This document shows positions 11,443-29,509 of a stretch of 35,369 nucleotides of DNA, piece after piece; positions within the stretch are counted from its first letter, which is position 1, and each line of letters opens with the position of its first letter. The position numbers were made by a program, and so were the translations under genes. The notes beneath the pieces are model-generated. The model was not told the origin of the DNA and did not search any database. It worked only from the letters and a program-made list of their open reading frames with translations. The stretch is from Firmicutes bacterium FC7 (GTDB lineage Bacteria; Bacillota; Clostridia; Tissierellales; Tissierellaceae), in contig JAKELU010000003.1 in the NCBI GenBank assembly GCA_022760735.1, positions 1 to 35,369 of the forward strand. The letters run 5' to 3'.

Positions 11443-12675
11443 ATGAACAAATATTTTGATATAAAGGAAAAAGTATTTGATATAACTGAAAAATATCCAG
11501 AAACACTTGATATATTTGTAGCTAATGGATTTGAACAGCTTGCCAATGAGAAGATGAGAAAATTAATGGGCAAAACCATATCTCTTGAAATGGCATGTAA
11601 AACAAAAAAAGTAAACATTGAGTTATTTGAGCAAAAATTAGTTGAAGCTATAGAGCAACATAGGATATCAGTAGATGAAGCGTTGACAGAGTCAAAAGAA
11701 GAAGTAGATGGAGATATTAGAATTGACGGAGTTCTTCCTTGTCCAATTAGAATACCTTTATTAGAAGCATTCAATGGGTGGATGGAGAAGAATAAAGGTA
11801 GCTTCGGATTTACAGTAAATTATGAGTTAAAATCAGCAAATCTAGGCCTAGACTGGATTATTGACAATGTCAAAACTGGAAATCCAGATGACCTATCTGA
11901 TTTATTCATGTCCGCAGGATTTGACTTGTTTTTTGATAAGGAATTAATGGGCAAATATAAAGATGCAGGTGTGTTTGAAGATATAACAGGTTTAGAAAAG
12001 CTAAATAAGGACTTTGATAATGACTATATAGATTTAAAGGATCCATTAAAGCAATATTCAATCATAGGTGTGGTACCAGCAGTATTTATGGTCAATGTAG
12101 ACGAATTAAACGGTAGAGAGATGCCTAAGTCCTGGGAAGATTTATTAAAACCAGAATTTGAATCTTCTATATCACTTCCTATGAGGGATTTAGACTTATT
12201 CAATGCACTTTTATTACACATTCATCAAAGATATGGTGAAGAGGGAATTACAAGATTAGGCAGAAATCTGTTAAGGAGTATGCATCCGGCTGAAATGGTT
12301 AAATCACCTACTAAGAGAGCTAGTGCAGGCATACCTGCTGTTACTATAATGCCATACTTCTTTACAAAGATGGCAATGAAAAATAGTCCATTAAAGACTG
12401 TTTGGCCGGAAGATGGTGCAATAATAAGTCCTATTTTCCTTTTAGCTAAAAAATCCAGTAAAGATAAAACTAAGAGATTCGTAGATTTCTTCTTCTCTAA
12501 AGAAGTTGGAGAGCTACTTTCATCTAACGGACACTTCCCATCAACTAACCCGGAAGTAGATAACGGATTATCAGATAATCAGAAGTTCATGTGGCTTGGA
12601 TGGGATTATATAAACAATAATGATATTGGTAGCTTAATAAGAAAGTGTGAAAAGATATTTCATGATGCAATATAA
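11443..12675 (+). CDS. cytosolic periplasmic-binding-protein-like protein with DUF1858-like N-terminus
   Basis: A 410-residue protein. Residues about 1-70 look like a DUF1858 domain (IKEKVFDITEKYPETLDIFVANGF) but lack the usual cysteines. Residues about 95-405 look like a type 2 periplasmic binding protein of the ferric/spermidine class: an LPCPIRIPLLEAF strand-helix start, a PKSWEDLLKPEF hinge-like segment and an SPIFLLAKKSS late strand. There is no signal peptide, lipobox or membrane segment, so it should stay in the cytoplasm, which is abnormal for a transport receptor. It is the first gene of a four-gene unit behind an HcpR-type box. AAGGAGG precedes the ATG. I infer a cytosolic ligand- or metal-binding role, not import. 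Confidence 0.75.
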   Translation: MNKYFDIKEKVFDITEKYPETLDIFVANGFEQLANEKMRKLMGKTISLEMACKTKKVNIELFEQKLVEAIEQHRISVDEALTESKEEVDGDIRIDGVLPCPIRIPLLEAFNGWMEKNKGSFGFTVNYELKSANLGLDWIIDNVKTGNPDDLSDLFMSAGFDLFFDKELMGKYKDAGVFEDITGLEKLNKDFDNDYIDLKDPLKQYSIIGVVPAVFMVNVDELNGREMPKSWEDLLKPEFESSISLPMRDLDLFNALLLHIHQRYGEEGITRLGRNLLRSMHPAEMVKSPTKRASAGIPAVTIMPYFFTKMAMKNSPLKTVWPEDGAIISPIFLLAKKSSKDKTKRFVDFFFSKEVGELLSSNGHFPSTNPEVDNGLSDNQKFMWLGWDYINNNDIGSLIRKCEKIFHDAI

Positions 12676-12690
12676 GGAGGAGGGATTTAA

Positions 12691-13392
12691 TTGAATTTAG
12701 TAGTATTTTCAGGTCCTCCTTCATCAGGAAAGACCTCAATAATACTTAAGACAATCGAAGCCCTTAAACAGAGAAATATATCTGTAGGGGTTGTAAAGTT
12801 TGACTGTCTATATACAGACGACGATATCTTATATGAGAAGGCAGGAATACCAGTAAAGAAAGGTTTATCTGGAGCACTTTGTCCAGACCACTTCTTTGCT
12901 TCAAATATAGAAGAGGTAGTTCAGTGGGGTTTAAAGCAAGGACTTGATCTGTTAATAACTGAATCTGCTGGTCTATGTAATAGATGTTCACCATATATAA
13001 AAGAGATAAAAGGCGTTTGTGTTATTGACAATTTATCAGGTATAAATACACCTAAGAAAATTGGTCCTATGTTAAAGTCAGCAGATATTGTAGTAATTAC
13101 AAAAGGGGACATAGTTTCCCAGGCTGAAAGGGAAGTATTTGCTTCTAAGGTAAGTTCAGTAAATCCTAGAGCAATGACAATGCATATCAATGGCTTAACA
13201 GGACAAGGTGCCTATGAATTAAGTACATTACTCATTGACAAGGAAAAAGATATTGATTCAGTACAAGGTATGGAACTAAGATTCCCAATGCCTGCTGCCA
13301 TGTGCTCATACTGTTTGGGAGAAACTAGAATAGGCGAAGCATACCAAATGGGTAATGTAAGAAAGATGGATTTAGGTGATGACTATGAATAA
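12691..13392 (+). CDS. Cys-rich P-loop GTPase (HypB/CobW-like)
   Basis: A 233-residue soluble P-loop protein. P-loop GPPSSGKTS is at residues 8-16, an ESAGLCNRCSPY segment at 91-102 replaces a switch region and carries C96-x2-C99, and VITKGD at 135-140 is the TKxD guanine motif as in HypB. A second pair C205-x2-C208 (CSYCLGETRIG) lies near the C-terminus, with single Cys at 39, 64 and 110. The layout recalls metallochaperone GTPases (HypB, UreG, CobW) that insert metals or clusters; the two Cys pairs could hold Zn, Ni or Fe-S. The start is TTG at 12691 after AAGGAGG. It lies 15 bases after the PBP-like gene, and its end overlaps the ABC ATPase gene. Confidence 0.8.
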   Translation: MNLVVFSGPPSSGKTSIILKTIEALKQRNISVGVVKFDCLYTDDDILYEKAGIPVKKGLSGALCPDHFFASNIEEVVQWGLKQGLDLLITESAGLCNRCSPYIKEIKGVCVIDNLSGINTPKKIGPMLKSADIVVITKGDIVSQAEREVFASKVSSVNPRAMTMHINGLTGQGAYELSTLLIDKEKDIDSVQGMELRFPMPAAMCSYCLGETRIGEAYQMGNVRKMDLGDDYE

Positions 13393-14386
13393 TTTAAAGA
13401 TTAGAGAACTATTAGATAAATACCCTTTCATAACAACCTATTTGGAGGATAATAAGCTTGATATCACTGGTTATGAAGAACTTACCTTTGATGAATATCT
13501 AGAACATTTTACTGATGAGGATATTGAGAACTGGGCAATTGACAAGGAGAGACTAAAAGTTGATTTAGAAGAATTTATTAATCAAATGAAGGAGTTTCTT
13601 GGTGTTAAGGATGAAGTAGGAATAGAGTCCTTAACAATTCTACCTGGTCATGATAAGTCTAAGAATCCTGAAGGATTCGAAGTACTTACTATTAGGAAAT
13701 CAGAAATCGTATCAATAGTAGGTCCTACAGGCTCAGGTAAAAGTAGACTATTAGCTGATATTGAATGGACTGCACAAAGGGATACTCCTACTGGCAGGGC
13801 TATTCTTATTAATGGTGAGGTTCCAGATATGAAGTGGAGATTCTCATCTAATAATAAATTAGTGGCTCAATTATCACAAAATATGAATTTTGTTATGGAT
13901 TTAACTGTTAGAGAATTCCTTGAACTTCATGCTCAGAGTAGATTAGTTCAAGATGTTGAAGAAACAATAGAAAAGATAATAGCTGCAGCTAACAACTTAG
14001 CTGGGGAGAAATTTAATCTTGATACACCTGTTACTTCCCTAAGTGGAGGACAATCAAGAGCATTGATGATAGCTGATACTGCAATTCTAAGTTCATCACC
14101 AATAGTGCTTATTGATGAAATTGAAAATGCAGGTATAGATAGAAAGAAGGCCTTAGAATTATTAGTAAGTAAGGATAAGATAGTTCTTATGGCAACCCAT
14201 GATCCTACACTAGCATTAATTGCAGATAAGAGGATTGTAATTAAAAATGGTGGAATATCTAAAATAATTGAGACAAGCCCAGAAGAAAAAGCAATACTAA
14301 CAGAATTGGAAAAAATGGATGCAATTATTCTAGGCATGAGAAGTGATTTAAGAGCAGGAAAACAACTTAAATCAATTAATAGCTAA
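13385..14386 (+). CDS. ABC ATPase with DUF1858-like N-terminal extension, no partner permease
   Basis: About 334 residues. The N-terminal 75 residues (LKIRELLDKYPFITTYLEDN...) resemble the DUF1858-like head of the first gene. The ABC domain follows with Walker A GPTGSGKS (about 113-120), signature LSGGQ, Walker B IVLIDEIEN and a switch His in MATHDP. After the catalytic Glu the usual P-T-S is replaced by I-E-N-A-G. No permease gene lies in the unit or within the neighbouring 10 kb up to hcp, so it may act like SufC, as a soluble assembly ATPase. Starts at 13376 (GTG), 13379 and 13385 (ATG) are all in frame. I choose 13385 because AGGTG at 13374-13378 is then well spaced. It overlaps the GTPase gene by 8 bases. 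Confidence 0.8.
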   Translation: MNNLKIRELLDKYPFITTYLEDNKLDITGYEELTFDEYLEHFTDEDIENWAIDKERLKVDLEEFINQMKEFLGVKDEVGIESLTILPGHDKSKNPEGFEVLTIRKSEIVSIVGPTGSGKSRLLADIEWTAQRDTPTGRAILINGEVPDMKWRFSSNNKLVAQLSQNMNFVMDLTVREFLELHAQSRLVQDVEETIEKIIAAANNLAGEKFNLDTPVTSLSGGQSRALMIADTAILSSSPIVLIDEIENAGIDRKKALELLVSKDKIVLMATHDPTLALIADKRIVIKNGGISKIIETSPEEKAILTELEKMDAIILGMRSDLRAGKQLKSINS

Positions 14387-23984: not shown

Positions 23985-25160
23985 ATGCTTACAAATTACT
24001 TGCTTAATCTAGTACTCAAGGAGGAAGTAGATTATAGCAATAAGAAAACTAGAACAAAAGTTGCATATTTAGCAAGTATTGTTGGTCTTATCGCTAATAT
24101 TCTTTTATCTGTGATTAAGCTGATAATTGGTATATTAATATCTTCTGTCAGCGTTATGGCAGATAGCATTAATAATTTATCTGATGCAGGATCTTCTATA
24201 ATAACTTTAATTGGATTTAGATTATCCAACATGCCTCCAGATAAGGAACATCCATATGGTCATGGAAGAATAGAATATATATCTGCACTTATGGTTGCTT
24301 TTATGGTAATACTAGTAGGCTTTCAGTTCATTAAGACGTCATATGAAAGAACTATAAATCCTCAGGTAGTAAAATTTGAAACCTATTCATTGATAATATT
24401 AATATTATCAATCATAGTTAAGATTTGGTTAAGTAGGTTTAACTACCATCTTGGTGAGAAGATTAACTCTTCAGGATTAAAGGCAACAGCGACAGATGCT
24501 TTAGGTGATGTACTTACTACCTCTGTTGTTCTCATATCTATTATAGTTGGCCGTTTTACTACATTGCCTATTGATGGAGTAATAGGAATAATTGTTTCTT
24601 TATTGATAATGTATAATGGATATAATCTTGTTAAGGAAACTATTAGTCCGCTTATAGGAGAAGCCCCTGATGATGAGCTAATTAGGTCAATTTATATGGA
24701 TTTATTATCCTATGACTATATTATAGGAGCCCATGATTTGATAATCCATTCCTATGGACCAGGTAGAACTATGGCCACAGTTGATGTAGAATTCCCAGCA
24801 GATATTGACAATATTACAATCCATGAAGTCATAGATAGAATGGAGAGAGAAATAGGAGAAAAGTATGATCTAACATTGGTAATCCATATGGACCCTTTAG
24901 GACCTGAAACTAAAGAAGCATATGAATTGAGAAAGAATATAAAGAGAATATTAAAGGCTGATCCGGTAGTTAAATCCATACATGACTTTCAAGTCTTAGA
25001 AAGAGAAAATGATAAATTAATTGAATTCCATTTAGTCATAGATGGAAATAAAATTAGCAAAAATACAAGTAAAGAATCAATAAAAGAAAGCTACGAAAGT
25101 TTAATAAATGAAAAGTGCACAGATATTAAATGTGATGTAATTGTTGATATTGAATACTAG
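23985..25160 (+). CDS. cation diffusion facilitator with Mn-type N-x3-D / D-x3-D motifs
   Basis: A 391-residue CDF-family metal/proton antiporter. Six helices span about 25-225. The metal site in TM2 reads A-D-S-I-N-N-L-S-D (N-x3-D), and the one in TM5 reads A-T-D-A-L-G-D (D-x3-D). In CDF phylogeny this pair is linked to manganese rather than zinc (H-x3-D), so Mn export, as for MneP/MneS, is the likely role. The His-rich loop P-D-K-E-H-P-Y-G-H-G-R follows TM2. A C-terminal cytosolic domain with one ferredoxin-like fold (about 235-310) plus an extra ~80 residues makes it longer than average. AAGGAG precedes the ATG. Confidence 0.88.
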   Translation: MLTNYLLNLVLKEEVDYSNKKTRTKVAYLASIVGLIANILLSVIKLIIGILISSVSVMADSINNLSDAGSSIITLIGFRLSNMPPDKEHPYGHGRIEYISALMVAFMVILVGFQFIKTSYERTINPQVVKFETYSLIILILSIIVKIWLSRFNYHLGEKINSSGLKATATDALGDVLTTSVVLISIIVGRFTTLPIDGVIGIIVSLLIMYNGYNLVKETISPLIGEAPDDELIRSIYMDLLSYDYIIGAHDLIIHSYGPGRTMATVDVEFPADIDNITIHEVIDRMEREIGEKYDLTLVIHMDPLGPETKEAYELRKNIKRILKADPVVKSIHDFQVLERENDKLIEFHLVIDGNKISKNTSKESIKESYESLINEKCTDIKCDVIVDIEY

Positions 25161-25175: not shown

Positions 25176-26759
25176 ATGATACGAGTTTCAGAAATTAAGT
25201 TATCATTAGATCAAGATGAAAGTAAATTAATCGAAGAAGTTGCTAAAAAGCTTCATATACCTGTAAAGGATATAAAGAACTATAAGATATTTAAGAAATC
25301 AGTGGATGCAAGAAAGAAAAACGACGTACACTTCGTATACTCTGTTGATGTTGAGGTTGAAAATGAAGATAAAGTTTTGAAGAAATACTCAAAAAAAGGG
25401 GTCATAAAGACACCGGAGTTTAAGGATGAATTCGAGATTAAAAAGCCACCTAAAAATTTTATACGACCTGTGGTGGTGGGATTTGGACCAGCAGGACTAT
25501 TTGCAGGTCTTACATTAGCACAGATGGGTCTTGAGCCAATAATCCTAGAGAGGGGAAAGCCAGTTGATGAAAGAGCAAAGGATATTGAATTGTTTTGGGA
25601 GACAGGCAAGCTAAATACTGAATCAAATGTACAATTTGGTGAAGGAGGCGCAGGAACATTTTCTGATGGGAAGTTGACAACGCTTATTAAGGACCCAAGA
25701 TGCAGGAAGGTTCTGGAGGAATTTGTAGCAGCCGGTGCACCAGAGGAGATACTATATATAAATAAACCTCATATAGGTACAGATATTTTAAGAGAAGTGG
25801 TAAAAAATATTAGAAAAACCATAATATCCTTAGGTGGAGATGTTAGATTTAATAGTAAGGTAACGGATTTGATAATTGAAGATAATAGAATAATAGGTGT
25901 TAAGATAAATGATAAGGAAATATTAGAATGCGATAAGGTACTTCTTGCATTAGGACATAGTGCAAGGGATACCTTCTACATGCTATATGAAAAAGGAATA
26001 GAAATTAAACAGAAAGGATTTTCCATAGGAGTGCGAATTGAGCACCCTCAAAGGCTAATAGATGAAAGTCAGTATGGAGAATTTGCAGGTCACGAGAAAC
26101 TAGGTGCTGCAGATTATAAGCTATCAGGACATTTTGATAATGGAAGAAGTGCTTATACCTTCTGTATGTGTCCTGGCGGTGTTGTAGTTGGTGCTGCTTC
26201 TGAAGAAAATATGGTAGTAACCAATGGAATGAGTTATCATGCTAGAGATAAGGAAAACGCCAATAGTGCACTGTTAGTTGGAGTTGTTCCAGAAGATTAT
26301 GGAAGTGAACATCCTTTGGCTGGAGTTGAATTTCAAAGAAAATGGGAGAGATTGGCCTTTGAAGCAGGAGGAGGTAATTATAAGGCTCCTGCACAGAGAG
26401 TGGGAGACTTTCTAGAAAATAGACCATCATCTCACTATGGTAGTATTCTGCCATCCTATAAACCAGGTGTTAAGATGACTGATTTAAGATTATGTCTACC
26501 TAACTATGTAACTGATACCATTGATATGGCATTAAGATTATTTGATAAGAAGATAAAGGGATTTGCTAATCCTGATGCAATCATGACAGGAGTTGAAACA
26601 AGAAGTTCTTCACCGATAAGGATTCAAAGAGATGAAAGTCTTCAATCAAATATTAAAGGAATATATCCTGTTGGAGAAGGTGCTGGATATGCTGGTGGAA
26701 TAATTTCTGCAGCCGTAGATGGTATTAGAGTTGCTGAGATGGTTGCTAAGGGGATTTGA
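25176..26759 (+). CDS. FAD-dependent oxidoreductase (COG2509 type)
   Basis: A 527-residue soluble flavoprotein. Residues about 1-90 are a small basic N-terminal domain; then VVVGFGPAGLFAGLTLAQ (about 98-115) is the dinucleotide-binding G-x-G-x-x-G with the acidic I-L-E-R end. Later come QFGEGGAGTFSDGKL, LALGHSARDTF, GGVVVGAASEENM and the closing GIYPVGEGAGYAGGI. This is the COG2509 'FAD-dependent dehydrogenase' pattern; the substrate is unknown to me. It lies 15 bases after the CDF gene and 62 bases before glutamate-cysteine ligase on the same strand, so co-transcription with the thiol genes is possible. Confidence 0.85.
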   Translation: MIRVSEIKLSLDQDESKLIEEVAKKLHIPVKDIKNYKIFKKSVDARKKNDVHFVYSVDVEVENEDKVLKKYSKKGVIKTPEFKDEFEIKKPPKNFIRPVVVGFGPAGLFAGLTLAQMGLEPIILERGKPVDERAKDIELFWETGKLNTESNVQFGEGGAGTFSDGKLTTLIKDPRCRKVLEEFVAAGAPEEILYINKPHIGTDILREVVKNIRKTIISLGGDVRFNSKVTDLIIEDNRIIGVKINDKEILECDKVLLALGHSARDTFYMLYEKGIEIKQKGFSIGVRIEHPQRLIDESQYGEFAGHEKLGAADYKLSGHFDNGRSAYTFCMCPGGVVVGAASEENMVVTNGMSYHARDKENANSALLVGVVPEDYGSEHPLAGVEFQRKWERLAFEAGGGNYKAPAQRVGDFLENRPSSHYGSILPSYKPGVKMTDLRLCLPNYVTDTIDMALRLFDKKIKGFANPDAIMTGVETRSSSPIRIQRDESLQSNIKGIYPVGEGAGYAGGIISAAVDGIRVAEMVAKGI

Positions 26760-26821: not shown

Positions 26822-28114
26822 ATGGATTATCAAAGACAGATAGAAGAGATATCCAGCTACATCAGAAGCGGCGAGAAGAAAAAAGAAGATATAAAAATTG
26901 GGGTTGAGTTAGAGCACATAGTAATAGATAAGGAAACTCTTAGGTCTATATCCTATTATGGTAAGAATGGTATAGCTGAAACTTTAAAGGATTTAGAAAA
27001 TGTGGGATGGACAGGAGTATATGAGGGGGAGTATATCCTAGGTTTAAATAAGGGAGATATGTCTATTACTTTGGAACCTGGTAGTCAATTTGAATTGAGC
27101 ATACAGTGTCAAAAAAGTATTAAGGCTTTAGAGGAAGAGTACTTTAAATTTTTAAATGAAGTGATACCTATATTTGAGTCTAAAGGTCAGGGACTAATGG
27201 CAATTGGATATCATCCAGTTACTAAAATAGATGAAATACGAATACTACCAAAAAAACGATATGATTTTATGTTTAATTATTTTAAGAAGACTGGAACCCA
27301 TGCTCATAATATGATGAAGGGAACAGCTGCACTTCAAGTTTCAGTAGATTATATAAATGAAGATGACTATAGAAAGAAGTTTAGAGTTATAAATGTACTT
27401 TCACCTGTAATGTATGCGATGTTTGAGAATGCTAGATATTTTGAAGGTGAAGTAAGGAATAAGCATACGGTTAGGGCTTTTATATGGGAAAATACAGATA
27501 AGGAGAGATCAGGGATAGTTAAAGGCGCACTAGATCCTGATTTTGGATACGATGATTATGCCAAATACATTTTAAATGGTCCACCTATTCTTCAGGTAGT
27601 TGATGGTGTAGCCTACTCTACAGGAGAAAAAAGGGTAAGAGATCTTTTGGACCCTGATAATTATAATATAAGTGAATTAGAGCATTTTCTAACCATGTTT
27701 TTTCCAGATGTAAGAACAAAAAAATTCTTGGAAATACGCATGATGGATGCTGTTCCTTATCCTTTAAATTTTTCAGCTATAGCGTTATGGAAGGGATTAT
27801 TATATGATGAAGATAATCTTGATAAAATCTATGAGCTTACAAAGGACATTACAATAGATGAAGTAAATAAGGCTAAAGATGAGATGATGGATAAGGGTTT
27901 AAAAGCAAATTTAAGGGATAAATCCTTATTAGAAATAGGAAAATATTTAGTTGAGATAGCAAGAAAGGGTTTAGATGAAGAAGAAAGAGCTTATCTAAAA
28001 CCATTGGAGGAACTTATCTCTGAAGGTAAAAATCCTTATTTAGTTACAAAGGAAAAGGAGAAGTATGGTAAGAAGGAAGCATTAAAGTGGTGCTTGCTCA
28101 ACAATTTAGTTTAG
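26822..28114 (+). CDS. gshA: glutamate-cysteine ligase (GCS2 family)
   Basis: A 430-residue ligase of the plant/EgtA-type GCS2 family, which joins the gamma-carboxyl of glutamate to cysteine using ATP. Visible: IKIGVELEHIVID near residue 25-37 (the E-x-E metal/ATP motif), ITLEPGSQFELS near 88-99, a THAHNMMKGTAALQVSVDY block near 160-180 and FLEIRMMDAVP near 300-310. It is of normal length for stand-alone enzymes. GGGAG precedes the ATG. The next gene begins 10 bases on and encodes an ATP-grasp ligase, so gamma-glutamylcysteine is probably handed to that enzyme. Confidence 0.9.
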   Translation: MDYQRQIEEISSYIRSGEKKKEDIKIGVELEHIVIDKETLRSISYYGKNGIAETLKDLENVGWTGVYEGEYILGLNKGDMSITLEPGSQFELSIQCQKSIKALEEEYFKFLNEVIPIFESKGQGLMAIGYHPVTKIDEIRILPKKRYDFMFNYFKKTGTHAHNMMKGTAALQVSVDYINEDDYRKKFRVINVLSPVMYAMFENARYFEGEVRNKHTVRAFIWENTDKERSGIVKGALDPDFGYDDYAKYILNGPPILQVVDGVAYSTGEKRVRDLLDPDNYNISELEHFLTMFFPDVRTKKFLEIRMMDAVPYPLNFSAIALWKGLLYDEDNLDKIYELTKDITIDEVNKAKDEMMDKGLKANLRDKSLLEIGKYLVEIARKGLDEEERAYLKPLEELISEGKNPYLVTKEKEKYGKKEALKWCLLNNLV

Positions 28115-28124
28115 AGGTGAAGAC

Positions 28125-29447
28125 ATGGATGCTTTAGAAATTAATAATGAGTATATTGATTTGGTTCTAAGTAAACCTAATGAATATGCTAAAGATTATG
28201 ATATAACAGTGGAAAAGGTAGCAAACTCAAATGCAAAATATAAAGGGAAACCAGTTCCATTTTTATATCACCCAATGTTCTATACTGAGGAAGATATAAA
28301 GAACTTTAATAAAATCAGCGATATTATAATATCTATAACCAATAAGGTTACTGATAGATATATAAGGGATGAAGAGTTTAGAAAGAAATTTGGCTTTCCT
28401 GATTTTATAGAGGAACTTATACAGATAGATAATGGTTATGATATTCATGTTCCAATAGGTAGATTTGATATTTTCTATAAAGACTATGAAAACTTCATGT
28501 TCTGTGAGATAAATACAGATGGATCTTCTGCCATGAATGAAGACAATACAATAGGTAGTATTTTGTTAGAAACGAAAGCTTTAAGAGATTTAGGAGAAAT
28601 TTATAAATTAGATCTTTTTGAGTTGATTAATTCTTGGGTAGATAAAAGTTTAGAAATCTATTCAAAGTATGACCCAACTGACAATAAGCCAAATGTTGCT
28701 ATTGTAGACTTTGTAGAAAGTGGAACATCAGCTGAGTTTGAAGAGTTTAAAAAAGCTTATATAAAGAAAGGATGCAATTGTATAATAACAGATCCGAGAA
28801 ATCTAGAATATAGGGATGGTAAGCTTTATTTAGACGACTATAGAATAGATTTAGTCTATAGAAGAATAGTTACTTTTGAATTAATAGAAAAAGTAGATGA
28901 AATACCGGATTTTATTGAAGCTTATAAAAATAAAGCCTTTTGCTGTATAGGTTCATTAAGGTCTCAGGTAGTTCACAATAAAATAATATTTAAAATATTA
29001 CATGATGAGGATACACTTAAATACTTAACTGAAGAAGAACAGGAATTTGTAAAGAAACATATACCATTTACAGGGTTATTTGCTGGTGAAGACCAGGTAT
29101 TTAACCATGTTTTGAACAACAAGGATAAATATATTATGAAGCCTATGGACTTAAATGCATCTCAAGGTGTATTTGTAGGTAGGGATTTAACTCAGGAAGA
29201 ATGGAAGGATAGACTTGAGAATGCCTGGAATAAAGACTACCTATATCAGGAATTCTTTGATCCTTTTGAAAGAAATCATATAGTATTTAAGGATGGCAAA
29301 CCTGAAATTGAATCCCTTAAGAGCATTATCGGATTGTTTATTTACAAGGAAAAGTTTGCAGGTATCTATACTAGAGTAAGCAATAAAAATATAATTTCAG
29401 GAATTACAGACTATTATACATTGCCGAATATTTTGGTGAGAAGATAA
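28125..29447 (+). CDS. glutathionylspermidine-synthase-like ATP-grasp ligase
   Basis: A 440-residue circularly permuted ATP-grasp enzyme like the C-terminal synthetase of glutathionylspermidine synthase (PF03738). Visible: the IPIGRFDIF and MFCEINTDGSSAMNED substrate/ATP segments (about 105-145), a Rossmann-like NVAIVDFVESGTSAEFEEF, and the ATP-grasp end DKYIMKPMDLNASQGVFVGRDL with LYQEFFDPFE. There is no amidase domain. The gene is coupled to gshA, suggesting that it adds an amino acid or amine to gamma-glutamylcysteine. Whether the product is glutathione or another thiol cannot be told from sequence. GAGGTGAAG precedes the ATG, and a terminator follows. Confidence 0.8.
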   Translation: MDALEINNEYIDLVLSKPNEYAKDYDITVEKVANSNAKYKGKPVPFLYHPMFYTEEDIKNFNKISDIIISITNKVTDRYIRDEEFRKKFGFPDFIEELIQIDNGYDIHVPIGRFDIFYKDYENFMFCEINTDGSSAMNEDNTIGSILLETKALRDLGEIYKLDLFELINSWVDKSLEIYSKYDPTDNKPNVAIVDFVESGTSAEFEEFKKAYIKKGCNCIITDPRNLEYRDGKLYLDDYRIDLVYRRIVTFELIEKVDEIPDFIEAYKNKAFCCIGSLRSQVVHNKIIFKILHDEDTLKYLTEEEQEFVKKHIPFTGLFAGEDQVFNHVLNNKDKYIMKPMDLNASQGVFVGRDLTQEEWKDRLENAWNKDYLYQEFFDPFERNHIVFKDGKPEIESLKSIIGLFIYKEKFAGIYTRVSNKNIISGITDYYTLPNILVRR

Positions 29448-29471: not shown

Positions 29472-29509
29472 AGAGTAGAAGTTATTTACATAATTTCTAC
29501 TCTTTTTTA
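29472..29509 (+). terminator. terminator after the thiol ligase genes
   Basis: AGAGTAGAA (29472-29480) pairs with TTCTACTCT (29495-29503), with inner TTAT/ATAA extending the stem, followed by TTTTT. Confidence 0.85.

Follow-up and report, generated by a model that had tools for sequence, protein, structure and literature searches.

The window analyzed here is a 35,369-nucleotide stretch of Firmicutes bacterium FC7 (contig JAKELU010000003.1; genome of 2.5 Mb in 44 contigs, here G000). It encodes two neighboring ligases, the subject of this report:

26822..28114, + strand: GCS2-family (plant-type) glutamate-cysteine ligase, predicted for step 1, to gamma-glutamylcysteine (gamma-Glu-Cys); 430 aa, ATG start
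28125..29447, + strand: stand-alone circularly permuted ATP-grasp ligase, predicted for step 2, gamma-Glu-Cys + X; 440 aa, ATG start

Ten bases separate the GCS2 stop from the ATP-grasp start, and a purine-rich stretch precedes each start (GGGAG for GCS2, GAGGTG for ATP-grasp), providing plausible ribosome-binding sites. An earlier note on this DNA had coupled a GCS2-type ligase to a stand-alone ATP-grasp protein of the glutathionylspermidine synthase (GspS) family and proposed, as one option, an alternative glutathione synthetase. Both genes are as it described, and its idea appears right in its core: the alternative synthetase is the best reading. The pair very probably makes a gamma-Glu-Cys-X thiol, which is probably either glutathione or a close relative. 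What each enzyme does, in which order, and what X is are inferred from the gene pair itself; its co-inheritance; the predicted fold; gamma-Glu-Cys-binding positions conserved by alignment; the finding of no other synthetase in the genome; and a link to classical glutaredoxins in part of the genomes.

Three samples underlie the counts below: a relatives set of 100 genomes, G000 included; a wider draw of 199 genomes from across the phylum, which shares G000 and G012 with the first sample; and 80 named loci, the best 80 of 389 encoded relatives in named species, many from the same genomes as the relatives set. Among the relatives, the ATP-grasp gene occurs in 55/100 genomes and GCS2 in 56/100, with all 55 common to both (Fisher 9e-28). 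The genes are adjacent in 49 of these 55 pair genomes (coordinates by eye); in the other six (G039, G048, G060, G061, G065, and G081) they lie 15-20 kb apart or on separate contigs. The ATP-grasp profile matches 14 genomes of the wider draw at E<1e-100. A strong adjacent GCS2 accompanies it in 14/14, vs a strong GCS2 in 1/185 others (G209, GCS2 alone); these counts exclude an ATP-grasp match in G188 (E 3e-17, in an 880-codon frame) and, as too weak, five further PF04107 matches (E 1e-6 to 4e-10).

GCS2 lies directly upstream of ATP-grasp in 69/80 named loci, the gap between aligned ends ranging from 2 to 241 bases; the 11/80 scored without adjacency include L082 and L132, which hold too little upstream DNA for it. 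The two-gene unit recurs in Tissierella, Peptoniphilus, Finegoldia, Orenia, Haloplasma, and Cloacimonadota, and the adjacent pair is found also in Halanaerobiia. Adjacency is far beyond chance. GCS2 and ATP-grasp distances correlate in a mirror-tree comparison of 52 genomes, from which five duplicate loci had been removed (r 0.89, uncorrected for species relatedness; 0/2000 permutations as high). In G048 and G061, the two proteins differ in their nearest relatives.

Two rare arrangements bear on the shared metabolite. The complete chromosome of Candidatus Formimonas warabiya (L123) encodes an ATP-grasp protein 46% identical. The 13 kb stretch around it contains no GCS2; a stand-alone 513-aa GshA-type ligase (L123:9008-10546, minus strand; TIGR01434, 405 bits, above the cut-off of 393) is located 1.7 kb from the ATP-grasp gene. 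This swap of step 1 was seen in one genome, in that stretch. Two glutamate-cysteine ligase families beside one ATP-grasp family point to gamma-Glu-Cys as the metabolite in common. In a metagenome-assembled genome of the Haloplasmataceae (L103), GCS2 and ATP-grasp read as a single 869-codon frame, an apparent fusion. The junction contains TAATG, where one missing or extra base would fake a fusion in such an assembly, so this case is supportive only.

Alternatively, gamma-Glu-Cys might itself be the working thiol, as in haloarchaea, with the ATP-grasp enzyme acting on an unrelated peptide. Gamma-Glu-Cys is given as a main thiol of halobacteria (PMC7278568), and one relative, G062, carries GCS2 without ATP-grasp. 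However, the ATP-grasp gene is kept in 55/56 GCS2 relatives and in 14/15 strong-GCS2 genomes of the wider draw. Adjacency in Cloacimonadota, Halanaerobiia, and Haloplasma, the apparent L103 fusion, and the L123 GshA-type ligase likewise argue for a joint pathway, and the alternative is very improbable.

The two ligases

The window GCS2 matches Pfam family PF04107 strongly (E 4.3e-35; 121.9 bits vs a cut-off of 21). Two NCBIfam models score below their cut-offs: the equivalog TIGR01436 (276 bits vs 463), to which the protein is related only, and the EgtA model of ergothioneine synthesis, TIGR03444 (118 bits vs 371). The closest solved structure is a plant enzyme: the plant glutamate-cysteine ligases 2gwc and 6gmo match the GCS2 profile at E 3e-84 over columns 8-422, near full length. 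Of the columns invariant in 44 GCS2 homologues, 32/36 are identical in 2gwc, the Brassica enzyme (alignment by eye). On this evidence GCS2 is a plant-type glutamate-cysteine ligase. Its specificity for cysteine is predicted on indirect grounds, namely the columns identical in the Brassica enzyme and the GshA-type ligase of L123. A likeness exists in another anaerobe, Pelobacter carbinolicus, whose plant-like ligase is 35% identical to that of Brassica; this ligase is an orphan, for which the authors identified no second enzyme (PMC3543383).

The alignments used throughout comprise 44/58 GCS2 copies (A3) and 43/63 usable ATP-grasp copies (A2, in which the window sequence replaces L001). Duplicate fetches and some near relatives were excluded from both, and two incomplete copies were skipped.

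The match of the ATP-grasp protein to PF03738 (GSP_synth) is marginal, at E 6.5e-7 and 29.3 bits, equal to the cut-off of 29.3; PF14403 matches at E 4.5e-7, under its cut-off. PF03738 is matched by 42/43 homologues at E<=0.01. No NCBIfam model matches at E<=1, and the 440-aa protein has no Pfam amidase match, in keeping with the earlier note's description of an enzyme lacking that domain. The Pfam family of eukaryotic glutathione synthetase is absent from the window protein at E<=1 and from the nine families matched by the 43 members (E<=0.01). Likewise, PF02955 (GshB) does not match the window protein at E<=1, and gives weak matches in 3/43 homologues (best 4e-4). The sequence family thus defined would stand apart from GshB and GshF, and distant from the eukaryotic synthetase. 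The best sequence match in the Protein Data Bank is Cp1B, the E-64 pseudodipeptide ligase (E 2e-4; profile E 4e-7; VIA-align Z 25.7), a fungal enzyme that joins epoxysuccinate and an amino acid (PMC12568646).

An AlphaFold2 model built from the 43 sequences has mean pLDDT 92.2 and pTM 0.91. In a Foldseek search with this model, rows 1-12 are glutathione or homoglutathione synthetases from human, potato, soybean, and yeast, the human enzyme being best (E 9e-18); there follow a putative GspS (3n6x), more synthetases, Cp1B, and E. coli GspS. VIA-align Z scores are 31.0 for YgiC, 29.9 for YjfC, 29.0 for potato glutathione synthetase, 28.9 for GspS, and 28.4-28.9 for the human synthetase. The modeled fold is that of a permuted ATP-grasp amide ligase.

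Comparison with the eukaryotic synthetases (human GSS, potato StGSS1, soybean hGS) starts from the same circularly permuted fold (Z ~28-29, closed forms). Residue equivalents were taken from a profile alignment together with column counts in the 43 ATP-grasp sequences. Six residues are invariant in 43/43: R113, D115, E128, N130, S135, and R247. The alignment pairs them, in that order, with human R125, D127, E144, N146, S151, and R267, where D127, E144, and N146 are the numbers that we take to apply in the human protein. In the human synthetase, R267, S151, E214, and N216 hold the gamma-glutamyl part of glutathione, whereas R125 and S149 hold its cysteine backbone (PMC2845819). By the same alignment, human S149 corresponds to Gly133 and human Y270 to Thr; E214 and N216 align ambiguously with ATP-grasp residues 195-201. 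E. coli GspS has Thr where R247 stands (weak alignment). Conservation of R113, S135, and R247 therefore suggests that the donor half resembles a gamma-Glu-Cys ligase; the acceptor half appears unlike that of the known synthetase. For all this likeness, including action after a plant-type glutamate-cysteine ligase, the window protein differs from the eukaryotic synthetase in its low identity (~10-18%) and in lacking its Pfam match.

These features suggest a general scheme. GCS2 would couple the glutamate gamma-carboxyl to cysteine, yielding gamma-Glu-Cys. The ATP-grasp enzyme would bind this dipeptide and phosphorylate its cysteine carboxylate with ATP, and an amine would then attack the resulting acyl phosphate to give gamma-Glu-Cys-X.

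Other routes and candidate users of the thiol

The earlier note had named a separate gshB or gshF as the other possible source of the thiol. Neither was found in G000: PF04262, which covers GshA and GshF, has no match, and PF02955 gives a sub-cut-off stretch only (19.5 vs 23 bits), inside a 903-codon frame. Some PF02955 match occurs in 45/100 relatives (best E 2e-13). Most of these frames span ~270-350 or 880 codons, and we read them as ATP-grasp proteins of RimK-like and other kinds. Judged by these profiles, there is no credible GshB in the window's genome. GshB would catalyze the same reaction as that predicted here; its structure (1gsa) aligns with VIA-align Z 9.1 over 214 residues only.

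PF04262 matches 4/100 relatives, all of one family (f16), in frames of ~800 codons as expected for GshF. GshF is thus rarer among the relatives (4/100) than the pair (55/100), and none of the four GshF genomes carries the pair. Both systems are predicted to perform the same two steps; GshF joins a GshA-type PF04262 ligase to another ATP-grasp domain, whereas here GCS2 and a permuted ATP-grasp enzyme come from separate genes. The earlier note had remarked that the fused GshF serves most Firmicutes that make glutathione. Glutathione has been reported for a few Firmicutes, and GshF is named for Streptococcus agalactiae and Listeria (PMC4360819).

Glutaredoxins are candidate users of such a thiol. 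The broad glutaredoxin family PF00462 is uninformative because it is present in 99/100 relatives; only the TIGR02181 (glutaredoxin 3) subset separates the genomes. In known cases, glutaredoxin 3 depends on glutathione. TIGR02181 scores are bimodal over the 100 relatives: 85-106 bits in 14, and <=64 in the rest. These 14 glutaredoxins, all with CP[YF]C, TVP, and GG.D motifs, belong to 10/55 pair genomes, 4/4 GshF genomes, and 0/41 other relatives, G062 among them (p 0.004, pair vs other). With the curated 90-bit cut-off applied, these figures drop to 8, 3, and 0 (p 0.01, pair vs other); G044, G075, and G013, counted among the 14, fall just below it.

Some families contain both pair-positive and pair-negative genomes. 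Glutaredoxin 3 with the pair vs without it occurs in 1/1 vs 0/2 genomes of family f9, 2/2 vs 0/1 of f10, 1/2 vs 0/6 of f3, and 2/25 vs 0/3 of f1; family f18 has it in 4/4 pair genomes. Three families have none either way: f4 (0/6 vs 0/4), f6 (0/8 vs 0/1), and f13 (0/5 vs 0/1). In the wider draw, glutaredoxin 3 was found at E<=1e-18 in eight genomes, 6/14 pair vs 2/185 other (p 1e-6), and above the curated cut-off in four, 3/14 pair vs 1/185 other (p 0.001). Its two carriers without the pair are G179 and G251.

Glutaredoxin 3 forms the N-terminus of a thioredoxin-reductase-like flavoprotein in G179 and in the pair genomes G215 and G275. A fusion of this kind would suit an enzyme that acts as reductase for a disulfide of glutathione type.

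Loci L182, L183, and L184 encode glutaredoxin 3 fused N-terminally to a thioredoxin-reductase/AhpF-like flavoprotein (398-404 aa), a make-up like that of thioredoxin-glutathione reductase. On the window's own contig, outside the window, lies a glutaredoxin-like frame (G000:C23:143596-143790; L202) with TGA at the first active-site cysteine; the motif becomes UPWC when TGA is read as selenocysteine, and from its sequence the product is probably a selenoprotein. Similar frames with a single TGA occur in no fewer than 25 genomes of the relatives set, of which 17 carry the pair. Glutathione peroxidase was tried as a marker of glutathione use and rejected, showing no link with the pair (p 0.12).

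Which residue is added

The simplest product of the pair is glutathione. The reading that we favor, and consider moderately probable, is a two-enzyme pathway to a glutathione-type thiol, in which X is most likely glycine and the ATP-grasp protein serves as a non-orthologous glutathione synthetase, from a family not known for this reaction.

Several points weigh against this reading. The first concern the acceptor site. In the human synthetase, the glycine carboxylate is held by R450 and the A-loop (PMC2845819). Placed by eye, Arg450 is matched by the aliphatic L433, and the ATP-grasp chain has no A-loop, ending at 440 where that loop would start; glycine, if used, would therefore be held differently. 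By VIA-align, YgiC, plant glutathione synthetase, and GspS are all close, and two of these three are amine ligases. The second concern the proposed users. TIGR02181 glutaredoxin was not found in 45/55 pair genomes, the window's own included; the pattern was first seen, and then tested with the curated model, on the same 100 genomes; and members of one family do not count as independent, the 10 glutaredoxin-bearing pair genomes representing five families. GSHPx (glutathione peroxidase) is not enriched with the pair (strong match in 12/55 vs 17/45; p 0.12). The third concern the genes. G062 is the sole relative of the 100 with GCS2 alone, and in L123 two ABC-transporter genes separate the ligase gene from the ATP-grasp gene, which lies on the other strand.

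Fold alone cannot pick between an amino acid and an amine acceptor, because the permuted ATP-grasp amide ligases score alike. X might be a polyamine or another simple amine, giving a gamma-glutamylcysteinyl-amide thiol comparable to the products of GspS and to the peptide-spermidine amides of YgiC and YjfC. GSP_synth is the Pfam family of most members (42/43), and YgiC and YjfC, which are peptide-spermidine ligases (PMC12568646, citing Pederick 2023), top the VIA-align list. The likeness extends to an ExNxD motif and to the fold generally (Z 27-31), and the missing glycine-carboxylate Arg and A-loop are consistent with it. GspS binds spermidine at an acidic site comprising Asp387, Asp389, Glu391, and Glu392 (PMC6272389). 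E198 (33 E and 3 D in the 43 sequences) is opposite Glu391, and the invariant D195 aligns one residue before Asp387, both in a weak alignment (hhalign probability 5). Glu391 is the single residue of the acidic four that faces an acidic residue directly in that alignment, and the spermidine site is matched only in part. The window enzyme also differs from GspS in its missing amidase and in its pairing with a glutamate-cysteine ligase.

Genome content argues the other way. Spermidine synthase is not associated with the pair (strong match in 26/55 vs 23/45; p 0.84), and 29 pair genomes are without one, although uptake is possible. Classical glutaredoxin tracks GshF and the pair alike, though glutaredoxins might take an amide. 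An amine is thus unlikely. The earlier note had allowed for glycine, another amino acid, or an amine as the third unit; its premise of an addition to gamma-Glu-Cys is favored, whereas its polyamine gains nothing from the distribution of spermidine synthase.

A different amino acid is a further candidate: Ser, Ala, beta-Ala, or other, as plants do with their homoglutathione and hydroxymethylglutathione synthetases. Addition of beta-Ala or Ser is known from relatives of glutathione synthetase in plants; in rice, OsGS2 attaches Ser (PMC6508825). Soybean homoglutathione synthetase (3kal) is among the best Foldseek matches, and the acceptor site is unlike that of the Gly-adding enzyme. Yet no positive evidence singles out any particular other residue, and glutathione itself explains the classical glutaredoxin link equally well; we regard this option as quite unlikely. 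Broader, and less probable than not, is the proposal that X is neither glycine nor any other usual amino acid. The product would then be an undescribed low-molecular-weight thiol, a gamma-glutamylcysteinyl conjugate that this ATP-grasp family makes in Tissierellales, Peptoniphilus and its relatives, Halanaerobiia, Haloplasma, and part of the Cloacimonadota. Both classical glutaredoxins and those containing selenocysteine would use it.

Gene neighborhood and wider setting

Three further features flank the pair in the window:

29472..29503, + strand: terminator-like hairpin that would close the unit; 14 pairs, then TTTTTAATAA; consensus match
25176..26759, + strand: FAD-dependent oxidoreductase (PF21688), upstream of the pair
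23985..25160, + strand: CDF-family cation exporter (PF01545)

The hairpin is weak evidence, because shuffles of the region average 1.8 such sites and the region itself holds one. The earlier note had placed the two upstream genes within a redox theme. The FAD oxidoreductase is labeled beside the pair in just 2/41 loci (the window and one congener), and is probably not part of the thiol pathway. Support for the CDF pump as the probable Mn exporter that had been suggested is also weaker, the protein scoring far below every metal-specific NCBIfam cut-off among the matches listed. A CDF-family member is nonetheless a recurrent neighbor, present in 14/80 named loci.

Neighbor counts over the named loci are lower bounds, because flanks vary in length. 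An aminoacyl-tRNA editing (YbaK-like) protein occurs in 11/80, mostly just upstream of GCS2; it is possibly a Cys-tRNA(Pro) deacylase, a role in keeping with heavy use of cysteine. These loci include L099, L147, and nine others, the Pfam run covering the L099 copy. Subunits of NADH-dependent hydrogenase/dehydrogenase type, so named from their sequences, lie near the pair in 9-11 of 80. No constant third gene was found in the 80 neighborhoods; the recurrent neighbors are optional, and the unit apparently comprises no more than the pair.

In L074, L081, and L083, where ATP-grasp is apart from GCS2, genes for a ZIP metal transporter, a CcdA/DsbD-type membrane protein, and an AhpC-TSA/TlpA-type thioredoxin-like protein come after ATP-grasp (Pfam assignments from the L081 copies). 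Elsewhere in the window (11443-14386), translations suggest three products in a row, a putative solute-binding protein, a GTPase, and an ABC ATPase, which may form a metal-related system. A role for the pair in defense was considered and rejected, neither protein matching any PADLOC defense-system model at E<=0.1.

A literature search found no title or abstract describing the pair, within a scope that left subscription journals mostly outside and full texts not read through. Annotation with NCBIfam would miss the pathway, because the ATP-grasp protein matches no model there.

To our knowledge, the thiol used by clostridia-like anaerobes is an old gap. If the favored reading is true, this two-gene unit would fill part of it. 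The ATP-grasp enzyme would join GshB, GshF, and the eukaryotic synthetase as another glutathione synthetase, separately recruited, and anaerobes of many groups would possess a protective thiol hidden from annotation.

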